Notes under the pieces: generated by a model
The model's input: only the letters and a program-made list of their open reading frames with translations
Databases searched by the model: none
Told to the model about the DNA's origin: nothing
DNA from: Oerskovia douganii
GTDB taxonomy: Bacteria > Actinomycetota > Actinomycetes > Actinomycetales > Cellulomonadaceae
DNA: 64,000 nucleotides
Reading direction: 5' to 3'
NCBI RefSeq assembly: GCF_015142735.1
Contig: NZ_JACSPN010000005.1
Location: forward strand, 100,083 to 164,082
Program-made: the position numbers and the translations under genes
In this document: positions 3,195-43,830 of the stretch, piece after piece
Position numbering within the stretch: position 1 is the first letter of the stretch
Layout of the letters: every line of letters starts with the position of its first letter

Positions 3195-4999
3195 GAGGCG
3201 CCCCCCGTCGAGGGCGCGCCCCGGTCGACGGGGTCGGCAGCGTCGGCGGGGTCGCCCACGAGCAGCAGCGCGAGCGCCGGGTCGGCGAGCAGCGCCCCGA
3301 GCTCGGCGAGGAAGCGGGCCCCCTGCTCGCCGTCGACCACGCGGTGGTCGAACGACAGGCTCAGCGTCACGACGTCGCGCAGCGCGACCTGCCCCTCGTG
3401 CTCCCACGGGCGGCGGCGCACGGCCCCGACGCCCAGGATCGCGGCCTCGCCCGGGACCAGGATCGGCGTCCCGGCGTCGACGCCGAACACCCCGACGTTG
3501 GTGATCGTGAGGGTCCCGCCCGTGAGCCGCTCGGGCGCGGTGCGTCCGCTGCGAGCCGTCGCGGTGAGGTCCGCGAGCGCCTCGGCGAGGCCCGTGAGCC
3601 CGAGCCTGTGCGCGTCGGGCACGTGCGGCACCACGAGGCCGCGGTCGGTCGCGACCGCTATCCCCAGGTGCACGCGCGGGCTGTGGACGATCTCGGCGCT
3701 CCCGTCCGGCAGGTCCTCCCACCGGCTCGCGAGCGACGGGTGCCGGGGCAGCACCACGCACAGCGCCCGCGCCACGAGCGCCAGGACCGTGATGCGCGTC
3801 CCGCGGGCGAGGGGGTGGGTGCGGAGCCGTTCGAGGAGCTCGGTGCCGGGCGTGACGTCGACCGTGAGGAACACGGTCGCGTGGGGCGCGGTGAACGCGC
3901 TCGCGACCATCGCGGCGGCCGTGTGCTTGCGCACGCCGCGCACGGGGGTGCGCGTCTCGCGGGCAGCGGGGTCCCCCGGCCCGCGGCCGGCACCGGTGCC
4001 CGCCCGGCCCGACGACGTCGCGCCCGTCCCGCGCGCCGGTGCGTCGTGCGCGGTGCGCGGCTCGGGCGGCGGGAACCCGCCGGTGCGCCGCGCGGCGGCC
4101 CGGGCCAGCCCGGACTGGCCGAGGAGGTCGCGCAGGGCCGTCGGCCCGGAGCGGCGCGAGGAGCTCGGCGGGTACTCGTCGTCGTCGAGGTCGCCGGGGG
4201 CACCGGGGGCGCCGTGGCCGCCGCCCTGCTCGTCGACCGGACCGGTCGAGGCGGTGCCCGGGAGCCCGTGGGCACCGTCGCGCTCGCGCCCCGTCCCGTC
4301 ACGCGCCACGCCCTGCGCACAGCTCACGGCCGCGAGGACGTCCTCGCGGGTCACGAGGCCGCGAGCCCCGGTCCCGACGATCCGTTCGAGGTGGACGCCG
4401 AGCTGCTTGGCGAGGCGGCGCACGGGCGGCGTCGAGCGGGGGCGCTCGGCCGGGGCGGCCGCGCCTCCGTCCTGGGCGGTGACCGCCGGGACCTCCTGGC
4501 CGCTCCCGGGTCCACCGTCGCCGGCCGGGACGGGGCTCGTCGTCGCCTGCGGGTCGTCCCCGGCGTCGGCGAGCCCGATCTCGGCGGGAGCCCCCGCAGG
4601 ACCTCGACGCGCCCGCCGTGCCGGGCGGCCCGCACGCTCAGGTCGCGCGCCGTACCCGACGAGGTTCGGCTGGGGTGCCTCCTCGGCGGCGTCCTCCCCG
4701 CCGCCGGCCGGACGCCCGGTCGGCACGGCGCCGTCGGGCGGGACCGTCCCGGCCTCGTCGGGGACCTCGAACGTGACGAGCGGCTCCCCGACGTTGACCG
4801 TCTGCCCCGGCTCGGCGTGCAGGACCGTGACGACGCCCGCGTACGGCGACGGGAGGTCGACGAGCGCCTTGGCGGTCTCGACCTCCGCGATGACCTGGTT
4901 GAGCTCGACCCGGTCGCCCGCAGCGACGTGCCAGCTCACGAGGTCGGACTCGGTGAGGCCCTCGCCGAGGTCGGGGAGACGGAACTCGCGCGTGCTCAT
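3191..4999 (-). CDS. bkdC: Dihydrolipoamide acyltransferase (E2) of branched-chain 2-oxoacid dehydrogenase
   Basis: The E2 core carries acyl groups on a swinging lipoyl arm and transfers them to CoA. The 602-residue product has one N-terminal lipoyl domain with the lipoylated lysine at about K44 (ETAKA). A peripheral-subunit-binding domain follows near 190-225 ([19 protein letters not shown]). The catalytic domain ends in the HxxxDG motif ([12 protein letters not shown]). The linkers are unusually long and rich in Gly, Ala, Pro, Asp and Arg: about 80 residues between lipoyl and binding domains and about 110 before the catalytic domain. The ATG overlaps the E1 beta stop by one base (TGATG). 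Pyruvate dehydrogenase E2 is the alternative; a single lipoyl domain, the separate E1 alpha/beta genes and the carboxylase neighbours favour the branched-chain enzyme. Confidence 0.88.
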
Positions 5000-39827: not shown

Positions 39828-40664
39828 TCAGTCGACCGAGGGCCTGGCCGACACCCCGGACCGCTCGAACACTCCCTTGGGCAGCGCGAGCGTCGTCGTG
39901 GGGGTCTTGGTCCGCTCGGTGGCACCCTCGCCGGGGGCCGGCTCGCCGTCGTCGGGCAGGGCGGGGCGGGCGCGACGACCGTGCGCCGGGGGTGCGCCCG
40001 CGAGCACCGTCCGGGCGACCCGATGGACCACGAACGCGACCACGGCGAGCGCCACGGCCCCGATCACGAACTTCTGCAGCACGCCCGCGTACTCCTCGAC
40101 CAGGTGCCAGCTCTCGCCCAGCACGTACCCCGCGGCCACGAAGATGCTGTTCCAGATGAGGCTGCCCGCGGTCGTCAGGAGCACGAACTTGGGCAGCGGC
40201 ATCCGGTCCACCCCGGCGGGCAGCGAGATGAGGCTGCGGAAGATCGGGATCATGCGGCCGAAGAACACCGCCATGCTGCCGTGCTTGTGGAACCAGGCCT
40301 CGGTGCGGTCGACGTCCTCGAGCTTGACGAGCGGCAGCCAGCCGATGATCCGGCGCGTGCGCTCGCGCCCGACCATCGCCCCCACGTAGTACAGCGCGAT
40401 CGCGCCCACGAGCGACCCGATGGTCGTCGCGAGGATCGCGGCGAAGACGTTGAAGCTGCCGCGGCTCGCCGTGAAGCCCGCGAGCGGCAGGATGACCTCG
40501 CTCGGCAGCGGGGGGAACAGGTTCTCGAGCGCGATCGCGAGGCCCGCGCCGAACACGCCGAGCGTCTCCATGAGCGACACGGCCCAGCCCGCGACTCCCC
40601 CCAGGTCGGGATCGCTCGAGGCGGCCACGTTCACGAGGTCGACAGGGAGGTTCACGAAGGGCAT
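39828..40664 (-). CDS. DedA family membrane protein
   Basis: A 278-residue integral membrane protein of the DedA/SNARE-associated family. These proteins are linked to undecaprenyl-phosphate or phospholipid recycling and membrane homeostasis. Family motifs are present: ENLFPPLPSEVILPLAGF near residue 48, then GSLVGAIALYYVGAMVGRER, and FFGRMIPIFRSLISLPAG around residue 140. A polar tail of about 60 residues follows the last helix. Although it follows the polyamine-type operon on the same strand, TAGTGT ends 7 bases before its ATG, suggesting an independent leaderless promoter. Confidence 0.92.
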   Translation of the reverse strand: MPFVNLPVDLVNVAASSDPDLGGVAGWAVSLMETLGVFGAGLAIALENLFPPLPSEVILPLAGFTASRGSFNVFAAILATTIGSLVGAIALYYVGAMVGRERTRRIIGWLPLVKLEDVDRTEAWFHKHGSMAVFFGRMIPIFRSLISLPAGVDRMPLPKFVLLTTAGSLIWNSIFVAAGYVLGESWHLVEEYAGVLQKFVIGAVALAVVAFVVHRVARTVLAGAPPAHGRRARPALPDDGEPAPGEGATERTKTPTTTLALPKGVFERSGVSARPSVD

Positions 40665-40794: not shown

Positions 40795-42450
40795 TCAGTA
40801 CCGCCAGCGGGACATGTCCTGCTGGTAGGTCCGGTAGACCACGGGCGACAGCAGCGTCGAGGGCTTCATGTCGACCTCGGGGCCGGGGTGGTCGCCCGCG
40901 AGCGTCGCGGTCGCCCGCAGGGAGTCGAGCGTGTGGAAGCGCAGCCCCACCGGGAGGGGCGTGGCGCCGAAGAGGCGCGCTCCGCCGTCGGGCAGGCCCA
41001 CCGCTCCGTCCTCCCCCGGGGCCGGGGGGAGCGACAGCACGAAGCCCCACTCCCCGAACGAGGGGACGTTGACCGACAGCGGCACCACGGTCCGGCCCGG
41101 CGAGCCCGCGCGCACCGTCGCCGCGACCTGCCAGAACGCGTTCGGGGTGAAGTACGACGACGTCGCCTGCGTCGCGTACACGCCCCCGGGCCGCAGGTGG
41201 TTCGCGACCATGGCGTAGAACTCGGTCGAGTAGAGCTTGGCGATGCGCTCGTTCGACGGGTCGACGAGGTCGATCAGGACCGCGTCGAACGTCTCGTCCG
41301 TGCTGTCCACGAAGCGGAACGCATCGGTGTTGACGACCCGTACGCGCGGGTCGTCGAACGCGTGCTCGTTGAGGCCGCTCACGAGACGGTTGGTCCGTGC
41401 GAGCTCGGTCACCGCCGGGTCGAGGTCCACGACCGTGACCTCCCGGACGCCCGGGTAGCGCAGGACCTCGCGCGCGAGCAGCCCGTCCCCTCCCCCGAGG
41501 ATCGCGACCGACGCGGGCGCCGCGACCGACGTGAGCGCCGCGTGCGCGAGGGTCTCGTGGTACCTCGCCTCGTCGAGCGAGGAGAACTGGAGCTGGTCGC
41601 TCAGGTAGAGCCGGACGTCGTCACCGAAGCTCGTGAGCACGAGCTTCTGGTAGGCCGTCGACTCGTAGTGGAGCACCGGGTCCTGGTAGAGGCGCGTGTT
41701 GATCGCGCCCTCGATCGCGCTCGACGCCGCGAAGCACACGACCAGGAACGTGACCGTCGCCCAGCTGAACCACGTCCAGCGCGTGCGACGGCCCATGCGC
41801 CGCAGCATGAACACCGCGACCAGCACGTTGAGCAGCGCGACCGCGTACGCGGTCCGCAGGAGCCCCAGGTACGGCAGCATGACGAACGGGAACAGCAGCG
41901 AGGCCGCGAGCGCCCCGAAGTAGTCGACGGCGAGGACCTTCGACAGCAGCCCGACCGACTCGTCGCGCCCGTGCTCCTTGAGCAGCGCCACGAGCAGCGG
42001 GATCTCGACACCGATCCCCACGCCCAGCGCGAGCGAGAGCAGCACGAAGACGAGCCAGTACACCTCGGTCAGGCTGAACGCCGCGTACAGGATGAGGACC
42101 GAGCTGCCGCCCAGCAGGGCGAGCGCGACCTCGTTGCGCACGAAGTTCAGGCCCGGGTTCGTGGCCAGGCGCGTCGCGAGCAGCGACCCGATCCCCATGC
42201 CGAACAGCGTGAGGCCCGTCGCGACGGAGAACGCGACGACCGAGTCGCCGAACAGGTAGGACGCGGCCGTGCCGAGGATCAGCTCGTAGATGATCCCGCC
42301 GACCGCGACGAGCAGCGCGGCCGCGAACACGGTCGGCCGGTCCATTGCGCGGCCGGGGTGCGGCACGTCGGACGTCCCGGGCGACGCCGACGACGACGGG
42401 CCCGACGGCGTCGCGCCCGCGGCGGCGGCCGCGCTCACGTCCTGGCTCAC
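40795..42450 (-). CDS. Membrane-fused polyamine aminopropyltransferase (spermidine synthase-like)
   Basis: A 551-residue fusion. Residues about 45-255 form seven or so transmembrane helices. The C-terminal half is a class I methyltransferase-fold spermidine synthase domain with VAILGGGDGLLAREVLRY, the acidic VVDLDPAV, VNTDAFRF and the catalytic-loop stretch AVLIDLVDPSNE. It would transfer aminopropyl groups from decarboxylated S-adenosylmethionine to an amine near the membrane. The AdoMet decarboxylase gene three genes upstream fits this. The start is uncertain: GTG at 42450 and 42438 both lie in a 12-base duplication, and ATG 42347 is a third choice. The gene begins 9 bases after DUF350. Confidence 0.88.
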   Translation of the reverse strand: MSQDVSAAAAAGATPSGPSSSASPGTSDVPHPGRAMDRPTVFAAALLVAVGGIIYELILGTAASYLFGDSVVAFSVATGLTLFGMGIGSLLATRLATNPGLNFVRNEVALALLGGSSVLILYAAFSLTEVYWLVFVLLSLALGVGIGVEIPLLVALLKEHGRDESVGLLSKVLAVDYFGALAASLLFPFVMLPYLGLLRTAYAVALLNVLVAVFMLRRMGRRTRWTWFSWATVTFLVVCFAASSAIEGAINTRLYQDPVLHYESTAYQKLVLTSFGDDVRLYLSDQLQFSSLDEARYHETLAHAALTSVAAPASVAILGGGDGLLAREVLRYPGVREVTVVDLDPAVTELARTNRLVSGLNEHAFDDPRVRVVNTDAFRFVDSTDETFDAVLIDLVDPSNERIAKLYSTEFYAMVANHLRPGGVYATQATSSYFTPNAFWQVAATVRAGSPGRTVVPLSVNVPSFGEWGFVLSLPPAPGEDGAVGLPDGGARLFGATPLPVGLRFHTLDSLRATATLAGDHPGPEVDMKPSTLLSPVVYRTYQQDMSRWRY

Positions 42451-42458
42451 GTCCTGGC

Positions 42459-42680
42459 TCAGGAGAGGATCGTCCCCGCGATGATGATGCCGATCGCGAC
42501 GGCGAGCCCGGCGATCATGATCCCGAACGCGGTGTTGTGCTCGTCGACCAGCTCGCGGTGCAGGTTGAGCTTGAAGAGGTAGTTGACGACGACGATCGTC
42601 AGGACCAGCAGGACGATGCCCAGCACCGAGTAGACGATCGTGGACAGGAAGGCGTCGAGGCGCAGCTCGGCGAGGCTCAT
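42459..42680 (-). CDS. DUF350 small membrane protein
   Basis: A 73-residue protein with two hydrophobic helices (about 13-37 and 52-73) joined by a polar loop containing HRELVDEHNTAFGIMIAG. This is the DUF350 (YjfL-like) pattern. In E. coli yjfL lies in an operon with the PspA-like yjfJ and a spermidine-synthase-like gene. Its function is unknown. ATG 42680 has a GGAG site. It lies between the DUF4178 gene (56-base gap) and the membrane-fused spermidine synthase gene (8-base gap). Confidence 0.88.
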   Translation of the reverse strand: MSLAELRLDAFLSTIVYSVLGIVLLVLTIVVVNYLFKLNLHRELVDEHNTAFGIMIAGLAVAIGIIIAGTILS

Positions 42681-42736
42681 GATGGCTCCAGGGTGTGGTG
42701 GGGGCGGACTCGGTGGGGTCGTGCGCGGGGCGCCGG

Positions 42737-43474
42737 CTACTTGCCGAGGCCTCCGCCACCGCCGCCGTAGACCGAACGGCGGTAGCAGGTGTCGTTCTCG
42801 GTCTGGACGGGGGCGCCGCTCGCGTCGTACCGCTGCTCGACCGTGCGGGGCGTGCAGTCGTCGTCACGGTCGTCGTCGCACGCGGAGAAGAGGCCGATGC
42901 CCGCGACCATGACGAGCACGAACGCGACGACGGGGTTGGCCTTGACCCGTCGCGGTGCGATCCGCCTGCCGAAGTGGGCCTTCTGGCCCGCGACGTCCAG
43001 GACCGTGCCCTGGTACAGGTCGATGACGCGGTCGTCGAACTTCTCGAGCGAGAGCACCGTGTCCTGGGTGCGCAGCTCGGCGTAGGCGACGCGCTGCCCC
43101 ACGGTCAGGTCGTAGGTGAACGACCCGTCGAGCGACGCGATGGTCCCGACGCCGGCCTCCGAGACCTTGGCGCGGTGCTTCTTCCCGGCGACCGTGACGG
43201 TCACGATCTGCCCTGCGCGCATCCTCGTGGGGTCGAGGGCCTCCTCGGACTCGACGGGGCGGTAGAGCGTGACGTCCCGGGTGTGGTGGTCGTACTCGAC
43301 CCAGAGGTCGAGGTTCTCGTACCCCAGGACCTCCCACTCCTCCCAGTGGTAGGTCACGCCGTCGGCGGGGTCCTTCTCGCCGTAGACGACGACGCCCTGC
43401 GGCAGCGAGCGCCACGGTGGCGCTCCGATCAGGTGCTTGCCGAGCGTCATGCGGGCCTTGGGCCGTGGCGCCAT
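42737..43474 (-). CDS. DUF4178 domain-containing membrane-anchored protein
   Basis: A 245-residue protein. The DUF4178 region (about 10-185) is beta-rich with conserved blocks such as YHWEEWEVLGYENLDLWVEYDHHTRDVTLYRPV and, in a second half, DLTVGQRVAYAELRT. A single helix (VVAFVLVMVAGIGLFSA, about 190-207) anchors it, with an acidic, cysteine-bearing outer tail ending in a Gly-rich stretch (YGGGGGGLGK). DUF4178 genes are often found beside DUF350 and spermidine synthase genes; no mechanism is known. ATG 43474 overlaps the AdoMet decarboxylase stop by one base (TGATG). Confidence 0.85.
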   Translation of the reverse strand: MAPRPKARMTLGKHLIGAPPWRSLPQGVVVYGEKDPADGVTYHWEEWEVLGYENLDLWVEYDHHTRDVTLYRPVESEEALDPTRMRAGQIVTVTVAGKKHRAKVSEAGVGTIASLDGSFTYDLTVGQRVAYAELRTQDTVLSLEKFDDRVIDLYQGTVLDVAGQKAHFGRRIAPRRVKANPVVAFVLVMVAGIGLFSACDDDRDDDCTPRTVEQRYDASGAPVQTENDTCYRRSVYGGGGGGLGK

Positions 43475-43830
43475 CAGAGGAGCGTCCGGACGCTCACGCC
43501 CGCGGCGGCGAAGGTCTCGCGCAGCAGGGCGCGCGTGTCCTCCTCGAACGTGCCCGACGACGGCGCCCGGCACGTCGTCAGGGTCAGGTAGGCGGTGCCG
43601 TCCTCGGGCCACGTGTGGACCGCGAGGTGGGACTCGGCCAGGAGGGTCGCCATGCTGAAGCCCTGGGGGGCGAAGCGGTGCGACGTCTCGCCCAGCGGGG
43701 TCAGGCCCGCGCGGTCGACGACCCGGGAGATGCAGGTGCGGACGGTCTTCTCGTCGTCGAGGAGCGCGGGGTCGCCGCCGGAGACGTCGAAGACGTAGAC
43801 GAGGTTGCGGTTGACCGGGTCGGTCGGCAC
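43474..43830 (-). CDS. speH: S-adenosylmethionine decarboxylase proenzyme (SpeH type)
   Basis: Pyruvoyl enzyme of 118 residues that decarboxylates AdoMet to supply aminopropyl groups. The self-cleavage site is Glu66-Ser67 in AESHLAVHTWPEDG; the serine becomes the pyruvoyl group. The processing and catalytic residues H72 and C87 (LTTC) are also present, matching the S63/H68/C83 arrangement known for the Thermotoga enzyme. GTG 43830 follows GGGAGAACAC; a GTG at 43863 would add 11 residues. It is the first gene of the speH-DUF4178-DUF350-speE-like operon, so enzyme and aminopropyltransferase are produced together. Confidence 0.9.
   Translation of the reverse strand: MPTDPVNRNLVYVFDVSGGDPALLDDEKTVRTCISRVVDRAGLTPLGETSHRFAPQGFSMATLLAESHLAVHTWPEDGTAYLTLTTCRAPSSGTFEEDTRALLRETFAAAGVSVRTLL

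Follow-up and report, generated by a model that had tools for sequence, protein, structure and literature searches.

What does a spermidine-synthase-type enzyme modify when it is fused to membrane helices and encoded next to an AdoMet decarboxylase and two further proteins? This question is raised by a four-gene cluster in the 64,000-nucleotide stretch of Oerskovia douganii DNA analysed here (the window). A sequence-only reading had described four genes from 43830 to 40795, and we were able to confirm all of them as tightly packed genes on the minus strand in the order speH, P0003, DUF350 gene and membrane-fused aminopropyltransferase (APT) (Table 1). The overlaps and small gaps it mentioned are present, the speH stop codon and the P0003 ATG sharing one base (TGATG) and 56 bases separating P0003 from the DUF350 gene. 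All four components were found again in 6/6 relatives fetched from the same family and DUF350 adjoining the fused APT also recurs in distant phyla, for which reason the cluster is not a chance arrangement; conservation, which that reading had proposed to check, extends beyond the genus. It was also right in finding no PspA in the cluster, the only PF04012 match of the genome being located on another contig.

Two neighbouring genes were considered as module members and rejected, based on a search of loci up to L121, many of them with little downstream sequence. The DedA gene (40664-39828; VTT domain, 130 bases downstream) is not taken as a core gene because L033 and L034 are the only loci with a homologue adjoining the module, and a homologue of the serine-hydrolase gene (45210-43945) is present in L037 and L038 only.

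Table 1. Features of the cluster, with positions given in the window
Feature	Position	Strand	Details
speH, AdoMet decarboxylase	43474..43830	minus	GTG 43830 to TGA 43474; 118 aa; PF02675
P0003, predicted acceptor	42737..43474	minus	245 aa; domain distantly DUF4178-like, single membrane helix, Gly-rich tail ending in Lys
P0003, predicted membrane helix	42878..42931	minus	residues 182-199
P0003, tail	42740..42781	minus	RRSVYGGGGGGLGK; last codon before the stop encodes the predicted acceptor lysine
DUF350 membrane protein	42459..42680	minus	73 aa, half-length, about two helices; PF03994
Fused APT	40795..42450	minus	551 aa; start GTG 42450 (42438 also possible); helices ~41-244, enzyme domain ~255-551

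The four proteins and the catalytic site of the fused enzyme

SpeH scores 81.5 bits against PF02675 (AdoMet_dc; cut-off 25) and its residues E66, S67, H68, H72, P75 and E76 are invariant across 24 aligned module homologues, the Glu-Ser-His sequence at residues 66-68 presumably being the pyruvoyl-forming site. With 68.5 bits it falls below the cut-off of 75.65 of the equivalog TIGR03330 (SAM_DCase_Bsu). A profile search yields one AdoMet_dc match in the source genome, and SpeH is the predicted source of decarboxylated AdoMet.

The fused APT reaches 540.3 bits against NF002956 (PRK03612, membrane-fused polyamine aminopropyltransferase; curated cut-off 472) and 122 bits against Spermine_synth (PF01564), and it holds the only Spermine_synth domain in the source genome. 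Hydropathy reveals about seven hydrophobic stretches ahead of the enzyme domain, as the sequence-only reading had stated. Q288, Y297, D344, D376, D394, D397 and F465 are present in 116/116 aligned APT sequences and D322 in 114/116, with Glu in the other two; all of these except F465 we take to be catalytic or donor-site residues of aminopropyltransferases. While the catalytic aspartates are kept, F465 occupies the position of a Tyr in the B. subtilis spermidine synthase 1iy9, which we assume to contact the acceptor. This Phe was rejected as proof of a new acceptor as it is not specific, the soluble APTs 1uir and 7xif, for example, having it as well.

The DUF350 protein, matching model positions 3-65 of 133 in PF03994 with 44.7 bits (cut-off 26), is the only one in the source genome and, across the loci surveyed below, a near-constant membrane partner of the module. 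The sequence-only reading had called it and P0003 two membrane proteins of unknown function, which holds in outline, P0003 reading as a soluble domain followed by one helix and a tail. The name DUF4178 given to P0003 fails as a Pfam assignment, since a Pfam search returns nothing even at E<=10 and the gathering score of DUF4178 (PF13785) is not reached, but stands as a distant similarity: profile-profile comparison with DUF4178-type proteins, for which Pfam names DUF4178 on both of those scanned (of L083 and L108), gives a probability of 96.5% (E 9.8e-10, 156 columns).

The helix of P0003 is preceded by RRVK and followed by DDDRDDD, a charge pattern being the same in most relatives, and the tail is therefore predicted to be outside. 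The tail is kept in 12/12 aligned relatives, and one exact-match pattern back-translated from it occurs a single time in the 4.25-Mb genome, at P0003. Because of this Gly-rich tail with its terminal lysine, which the sequence-only reading had missed, P0003 is the likely acceptor of the fused APT.

Lysine-ended tails across fused-APT loci

Our survey comprises 134 fused-APT loci, and the record titles of one of the searches behind it span about 15 phyla. A nearby module protein ends in Lys in 105/105 distinct loci with DUF350 beside the enzyme, the locus counts not being phylogenetically independent. The residue preceding the Lys in 108 tails is G in 79, H in 24, T in three, and A and I in one each. 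In the interval from -420 to +40 bases around the DUF350 start, 93 of 102 loci have an ORF ending in [GH]K and 97 an ORF ending in K, compared to 17/1807 (0.9%) for random same-strand control intervals, 28/2320 on the opposite strand, 2/49 upstream of AdoMetDC and 0/114 downstream of the APT. The bodies of the tail proteins vary, including DUF4178 fusions, DUF4247 lipoproteins and proteins of 50-65 aa, while the Lys end is constant; a clear helix above the threshold used is found in 90/109 candidates and is not universal.

Tail, DUF350 and an intact acceptor site co-occur. As a natural negative, 15 diverged second paralogues of Streptomyces type have neither DUF350 nor a genuine tail, and the two acceptor-site residues Q288 and F465 are absent in 15/15. 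At L054, the only K-ending ORF is spurious. For seven intact fused APTs, both DUF350 and tail are missing from the stretch examined (L046, L055, L068, L069, L075, L091, L118), the sequence ending less than 270 bases from the enzyme in L055, L075 and L091 and covering ~1.2 kb upstream in L118 and ~2.2 kb in L069.

Sister loci with an ATP-grasp ligase differ in the last residue. The Gly-rich protein preceding the ligase ends in G in 27/30 and in S in 3/30, E. coli YgiB and YjfM end in GG, and plasmid DUF1190 proteins end in G in 7/8 and in S in 1/8, i.e. Gly or Ser in 40/40 ATP-grasp-type tails overall. The same Gly-rich selection applied to the APT loci yields a K end in 61/64, whereas the K selection applied to the ATP-grasp loci yields 1/38 (L157, not Gly-rich). 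The Lys versus Gly/Ser end of the tail goes with the partner enzyme.

A model for tail-lysine aminopropylation and its alternatives

The data suggest, with a probability of roughly 60%, a model according to which the module constitutes a kit dedicated to protein modification. SpeH would convert AdoMet to decarboxylated AdoMet, from which the fused APT would transfer the 3-aminopropyl group onto the side-chain amine of the C-terminal Lys of the tail protein, here P0003. The flexible Gly-rich tail would then terminate in N6-(3-aminopropyl)lysine, in effect a spermidine-like chain anchored on a membrane protein. With its amine on four carbons, the Lys side chain resembles putrescine and could therefore fit a spermidine-synthase-type site. 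Lys as the acceptor, this product and a physiological role in envelope or membrane stability are what we infer. By charge pattern, there are about even odds that tail and APT enzyme domain are both outside the membrane; such a location would require export of decarboxylated AdoMet, perhaps performed by the transporter-like helices of the APT.

Several observations count against this model, among them the fused APT at L054 and the seven with neither DUF350 nor tail, the tail proteins lacking a clear helix and the Phe shared with soluble APTs. The ATP-grasp ligases are taken as intracellular, while the tails are predicted to be outside. Furthermore, AdoMet_dc is absent from 39/45 Actinomycetia genomes with a fused APT, so that the model needs either DUF2617 as an unrecognised decarboxylase or a different donor. 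DUF2617 accompanies 44/48 fused APTs in Actinomycetia, the other four being in genomes with AdoMet_dc (4/4), and may replace the AdoMet decarboxylase where AdoMet_dc is missing. The control genome of Corynebacterium glutamicum gave matches to DUF350, DUF2617, Spermine_synth and PspA and does not appear among the genomes with AdoMet_dc. An origin of DUF2617 as a diverged AdoMetDC was rejected, no homology being detected by hhalign (probability 1.4%).

The missing decarboxylase is also what speaks for transfer of another group to the tail Lys, e.g. 3-amino-3-carboxypropyl from AdoMet itself, at any rate where a lineage has no AdoMet decarboxylase. We consider this improbable given a same-strand AdoMetDC in 46/60 loci for which 4.5 kb or more of upstream sequence is available, its overlap with the next gene in the window and the complementary distribution of DUF2617 and AdoMet_dc in those four genomes. 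An ordinary spermidine synthase supplying spermidine locally at the membrane would explain the catalytic residues kept in the 116 aligned sequences and the NCBIfam family name, polyamine aminopropyltransferase. It is, however, hardly to be expected in a genome in which no OKR-type decarboxylase was found and the single match of the Orn/Arg-decarboxylase family scores as LysA, so that the two families searched yield no putrescine-forming decarboxylase; the Phe replacing the Tyr of 1iy9 and the constant association of the APT with the tail also argue against it, as does a result attributed to Li and colleagues (2019), in which such fusions reportedly yielded no spermidine and failed to complement an E. 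coli speE mutant. The sequence-only reading had offered both alternatives: that a membrane-associated amine is modified, in place of ordinary spermidine synthesis, gains support from these findings, from the conservation of the module and from the single Spermine_synth domain and AdoMet_dc match, whereas we found no support for local polyamine synthesis.

The APT might instead act on a small amine or a membrane lipid, with the unmodified Lys tail being a signal for docking, sorting or assembly that acts together with DUF350. The tail following DUF350 so closely (105/105) and the motif preceding the Lys, which could be a binding element, are in line with this; still, we regard it as unlikely. 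DUF350 is present in the stretch examined in 18/38 ATP-grasp loci, the tails of which nevertheless end in Gly/Ser, so the last residue varies with the enzyme and not with DUF350, and the tail persists with six intact APTs for which no DUF350 was detected (L027, L043, L048, L049, L067, L107).

Relation to known systems and implications

Clusters of AdoMetDC, an MFS-SpdSyn fusion and DUF350 are said to have been described by Li and colleagues in 2019 in the Biochem J, the acceptor not being putrescine and left open; AdoMetDC, fused enzyme and DUF350 are shared with the module described here. The E. coli operons yjfIJKLMC and ygiBC, encoding the peptide-spermidine ligases YjfC and YgiC, likewise combine a polyamine enzyme with an adjoining Gly-rich-tailed DUF1190 protein, and yjf also contains DUF350 and, as the sequence-only reading had stated, PspA. 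They differ in having an ATP-grasp amide ligase in place of AdoMetDC and APT and in tails ending in GG instead of Lys; a GSP_synth ATP-grasp gene (PF03738) has no match in the source genome, and the module is not of the yjf/ygi type. In deoxyhypusine synthase acting on eIF5A, a Lys side chain also receives a polyamine-derived aminoalkyl group, but the enzyme is unrelated to APT and transfers aminobutyl from spermidine to an internal Lys of a cytosolic factor. P. aeruginosa speD2-speE2 (PA4773-PA4774) is a dedicated pair of AdoMetDC and spermidine synthase with an envelope role (surface-localized spermidine), its product being free spermidine.

A PSP-associated operon with a 7TM-fused spermidine synthase, DUF350, DUF4178 and a lipoprotein is described in the main text of Ravi et al. 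2024 (PMC11237479), with the proposal of polyamine sensing or of other substrates being aminopropylated. The fused enzyme type, DUF350 and DUF4178 are the same; unlike in the second group of that operon, as given there, PspA and the CesT/Tir dyad are absent among the four genes here, and the cluster itself includes AdoMetDC. This kind of operon has been published before, as has the proposal of a non-putrescine acceptor (Ravi et al. 2024, PMC11237479; reportedly also Li 2019). The terms C-terminal lysine and glycine-rich do not occur in the main text of Ravi et al., where 'tail' turns up solely within a reference. In the parts of the open-licence literature covered (including PMC11237479, PMC10948618, PMC10407285, PMC11107197, PMC12568646 and PMC12506659), no description of a Lys tail or of protein aminopropylation was found.

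Taken jointly, the observations might reflect a widespread, as yet undescribed outer-face aminopropylation of the C-terminal Lys of envelope proteins by a transporter-fused APT also passing decarboxylated AdoMet, with an exported flavin amine oxidase then acting on the modified tail in many lineages, DUF2617 being a new, unrelated AdoMet decarboxylase family in Actinomycetia and the ATP-grasp sister operons arriving at the same result, a membrane protein with a polyamine end, through ligation of a preformed polyamine to a C-terminal Gly; as a whole, this reading is doubtful.

If confirmed, aminopropylation of a C-terminal Lys would be a new kind of protein modification. The model offers a candidate acceptor for a very common 'spermidine synthase' family that has lacked one and reportedly makes no spermidine, reduces the DUF350 puzzle to a single mass-spectrometry experiment and provides DUF4247, DUF4178 and DUF2617 with testable roles. 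Both operon types might moreover follow one logic, that of equipping the terminus of a membrane protein with a polyamine.

The four-gene cluster and its relatives

The membrane polyamine cluster proposed by the sequence-only reading was borne out, all four genes lying on the minus strand of a genome of 4.25 Mb in 69 contigs and encoding speH, a 245-aa protein (P0003), a 73-aa DUF350 protein and a 551-aa membrane-fused aminopropyltransferase (P0005; APT). speH shares one base with gene 2, which is followed by a gap of 56 bases, and 8 bases separate the DUF350 gene from the APT gene when the latter is taken to start at GTG 42450. The label DUF4178 for gene 2 is supported by profile comparison, although Pfam gives no such match. 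A membrane gene of the DedA type (VTT domain) lies 130 bases past the cluster, and such a gene also adjoins the module in loci L033 and L034. The genome holds one Spermine_synth domain, one AdoMet_dc, one DUF350 and one Orn/Arg-family decarboxylase, the latter scoring as LysA (413 bits; cut-off 298), with no match for GSP_synth or OKR decarboxylase. Looking for PspA-like genes elsewhere in the genome, as had been proposed, returned one PspA on a different contig.

The operon type is already known. Li et al. 2019 reportedly described AdoMetDC together with MFS-SpdSyn fusions and DUF350, found neither spermidine nor complementation, and left the acceptor open. Ravi et al. 2024 (PMC11237479), citing that work, report an operon linked to PspA in which a spermidine-synthase-like domain joined to seven membrane helices is accompanied by DUF350, DUF4178 and a lipoprotein; variants of it carry DUF4247, DUF2617, AdoMet decarboxylase and polyamine oxidase. 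The present cluster belongs to this type, as a variant having a lysine-ending tail fused to DUF4178.

P0005 has full-length matches in 7 of 61 genomes of the family, its own genome counted, and the NF002956 cut-off is exceeded in 45 of 197 Actinomycetia genomes (48 genes). A contig search yielded the best 80 of 581 relatives among the matches listed, from many phyla; in these 80 loci a simple search found DUF350 in 68, AdoMetDC in 51 and a P0003-like protein in eight, three of them weak. Where 4.5 kb or more of upstream sequence is available (60 loci), AdoMetDC is on the same strand in 46. Zinc-ribbon proteins of one large family, whose L083 member Pfam names DUF4178, are encoded in 60 loci of the best-80 set. 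A band-7 protein lies upstream in 24 loci, the one at L076 with a zinc ribbon, and DUF350 is half-length in these modules (median 71 aa) and by appearance longer in the Actinomycetia class loci. Locus L042, on a contig labelled as a Saccharibacteria MAG, holds a module that closely resembles the Actinomyces ones and that of the window; its assignment could be a binning error.

A downstream cluster spanning 53 loci of the best-80 set includes a flavin amine-oxidase-like gene, a simple flavoprotein filter being passed in 36 of them and the remainder including spurious ORFs. This gene is found directly 3' of the fused enzyme, frequently with a twin-arginine-like export motif, and its product may act on the tail after its predicted modification.

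Coordinates of the cluster and of individual features in related loci
Feature	Locus	Positions	Strand
Four-gene cluster, speH to APT	window	43830-40795	minus
GTG start of the APT	window	42450	minus
DedA-type (VTT domain) gene	window	39828-40664	minus
Flavin amine-oxidase-like gene	L083	7482-8996	
Band-7 protein	L076	2224-3225	
Two tail proteins flanking speH	L044, L045 (Actinomyces)	about 3416-5626	
Extra hypothetical protein ending AGK	L157 (Vibrio campbellii)	3577-3936	

The lysine-ending tail beside DUF350

P0003 ends in RRSVYGGGGGGLGK, a pattern found once in its own genome in the one exact-match form searched, and in many other modules a tiny Lys-ending protein is encoded immediately 5' of DUF350. 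Among 116 loci (30 class, 6 family, 80 named), 102 contain DUF350, and within -420 to +40 bases relative to its start an ORF ending in GK or HK is present in 93 and any K-ending ORF in 97 of these 102. The corresponding numbers are 17 and 130 of 1807 for same-strand random windows, 28 and 291 of 2320 for opposite-strand random windows, 2 and 9 of 49 upstream of AdoMetDC and 0 and 5 of 114 downstream of the enzyme. The five loci with no K-ending ORF in the interval (L022, L085, L090, L093, L110) have their tail elsewhere nearby.

The full table adds the window, the class genes not yet included and the Streptomyces paralogues to the earlier loci, giving 138 rows for 134 distinct loci (L196-L199 duplicate L010, L015, L024 and L022), its tail filter being looser than that of the interval count and the matches being inspected by eye. 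All 105 DUF350 loci have a tail and an enzyme with intact acceptor-site positions Q288 and F465. Intact enzymes without DUF350 (14 loci) show a genuine tail in six, a spurious one in one (L054) and none in seven, and the 15 loci with diverged enzymes have neither DUF350 nor a genuine tail, the K-ending ORFs at L203 and L208 being due to chance. As the terminal Lys in 108/108 tails is imposed by the filter, the informative observations are the 105/105 co-occurrence and the preceding residue, which is G in 79 and H in 24. Within the last 20 residues, 14 of 108 tails contain another Lys and 98 an Arg; other module proteins show 0-2 K endings per family. The Streptomyces-type second fused enzymes (L194, L195, L202-L214) have DUF2617 beside them with gaps below 500 bases, no DUF350, no tail and a diverged acceptor site; a Cys/Gly-rich protein with a GGGS end lies upstream in L194 and L195.

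Of the tiny tail proteins, the 11 compared with Pfam had no confident match (a single one reached E 0.025), nor had the 10 compared with NCBIfam. Three larger tail proteins scanned match DUF4247, one below cut-off, and the DUF4247 model extends into the tail. Two Actinomyces modules have two tail proteins each, on both sides of speH, and L065 shows a tandem duplication of DUF4178, tail protein and DUF350.

Terminal residue and partner enzyme

An amide ligase requires a carboxylate, as provided by a C-terminal Gly, and an aminopropyltransferase requires an amine, as provided by Lys. Sister operons with an ATP-grasp (GSP_synth) ligase occur in 40 of the same 197 genomes; in each of the best 30 loci that were read, the ligase gene is preceded by a Gly-rich protein, whose last residue is G in 27, S in three and K in none. 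E. coli YgiB and YjfM from ATP-grasp operons end in GG, in contrast to the Lys of APT modules; the E. coli record names YgiC and YjfC peptide-spermidine ligases, and PMC12568646 names them peptidylpolyamine synthetases. Eight plasmid DUF1190 proteins, picked for variety from the 40 that were listed out of 95 matching records, have G (7) or S (1) as their last residue, with an annotated ligase adjoining or near in 6/8.

Because the tail sets had been selected unlike each other, K-ending versus Gly-rich, the selections were crossed. The most Gly-rich ORF has at least 6 Gly in its last 30 residues in 64 of 102 APT loci, 61 of these 64 ending in K, whereas a K-ending ORF precedes the ligase in one of 38 ATP-grasp loci, L157, where an extra non-Gly-rich protein lies between DUF1190 and ligase. 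DUF350 is present in 18 of the 38 within the stretch examined. The tail's last residue tracks the chemistry of the partner enzyme.

Topology and the proposed aminopropyl donor

Lys/Arg residues are more frequent in helix loops 2, 4 and 6 of the enzyme than in loops 1, 3 and 5 in 116/116 sequences, which with seven helices, counted by hydropathy only, would place the enzyme domain outside. At the threshold applied, 90 of 109 tail candidates show a helix; the flank with more positive charge precedes it in 75 and follows it in seven, with eight ties, which would likewise place the tail outside; P0003 fits this. A loose twin-arginine-like pattern is found in 26 of 36 downstream flavoproteins. The three signals agree on an outside location, a reading that is uncertain since the ATP-grasp ligases presumably act inside.

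DUF2617 occurs in 41 of 197 Actinomycetia genomes (e.g. L164-L191), all with a fused APT, and 44 of 48 fused APT genes have it no more than 2 kb upstream in the same orientation. The four others, including the window, come from the only genomes that have a fused APT but no DUF2617; AdoMet_dc is present in 4/4 of these versus 2/41 with DUF2617 (Fisher p 1e-4, relatedness ignored). This near-exclusion suggests DUF2617 standing in for AdoMetDC as a candidate new AdoMet decarboxylase, with no homology detected between the two; support is moderate, as in three of these four genomes the AdoMet_dc gene is outside the module, and in one (G107) it adjoins a shorter synthase-like match. Should DUF2617 lack decarboxylase activity, a different donor would be needed in most of these Actinomycetia.

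No description of the Lys tail, or of the K versus G/S split between operon types, was found in the open-licence literature searched. Protein aminopropylation is the best supported mechanism for these modules, a predicted chemistry to which we assign a probability of roughly 60%.
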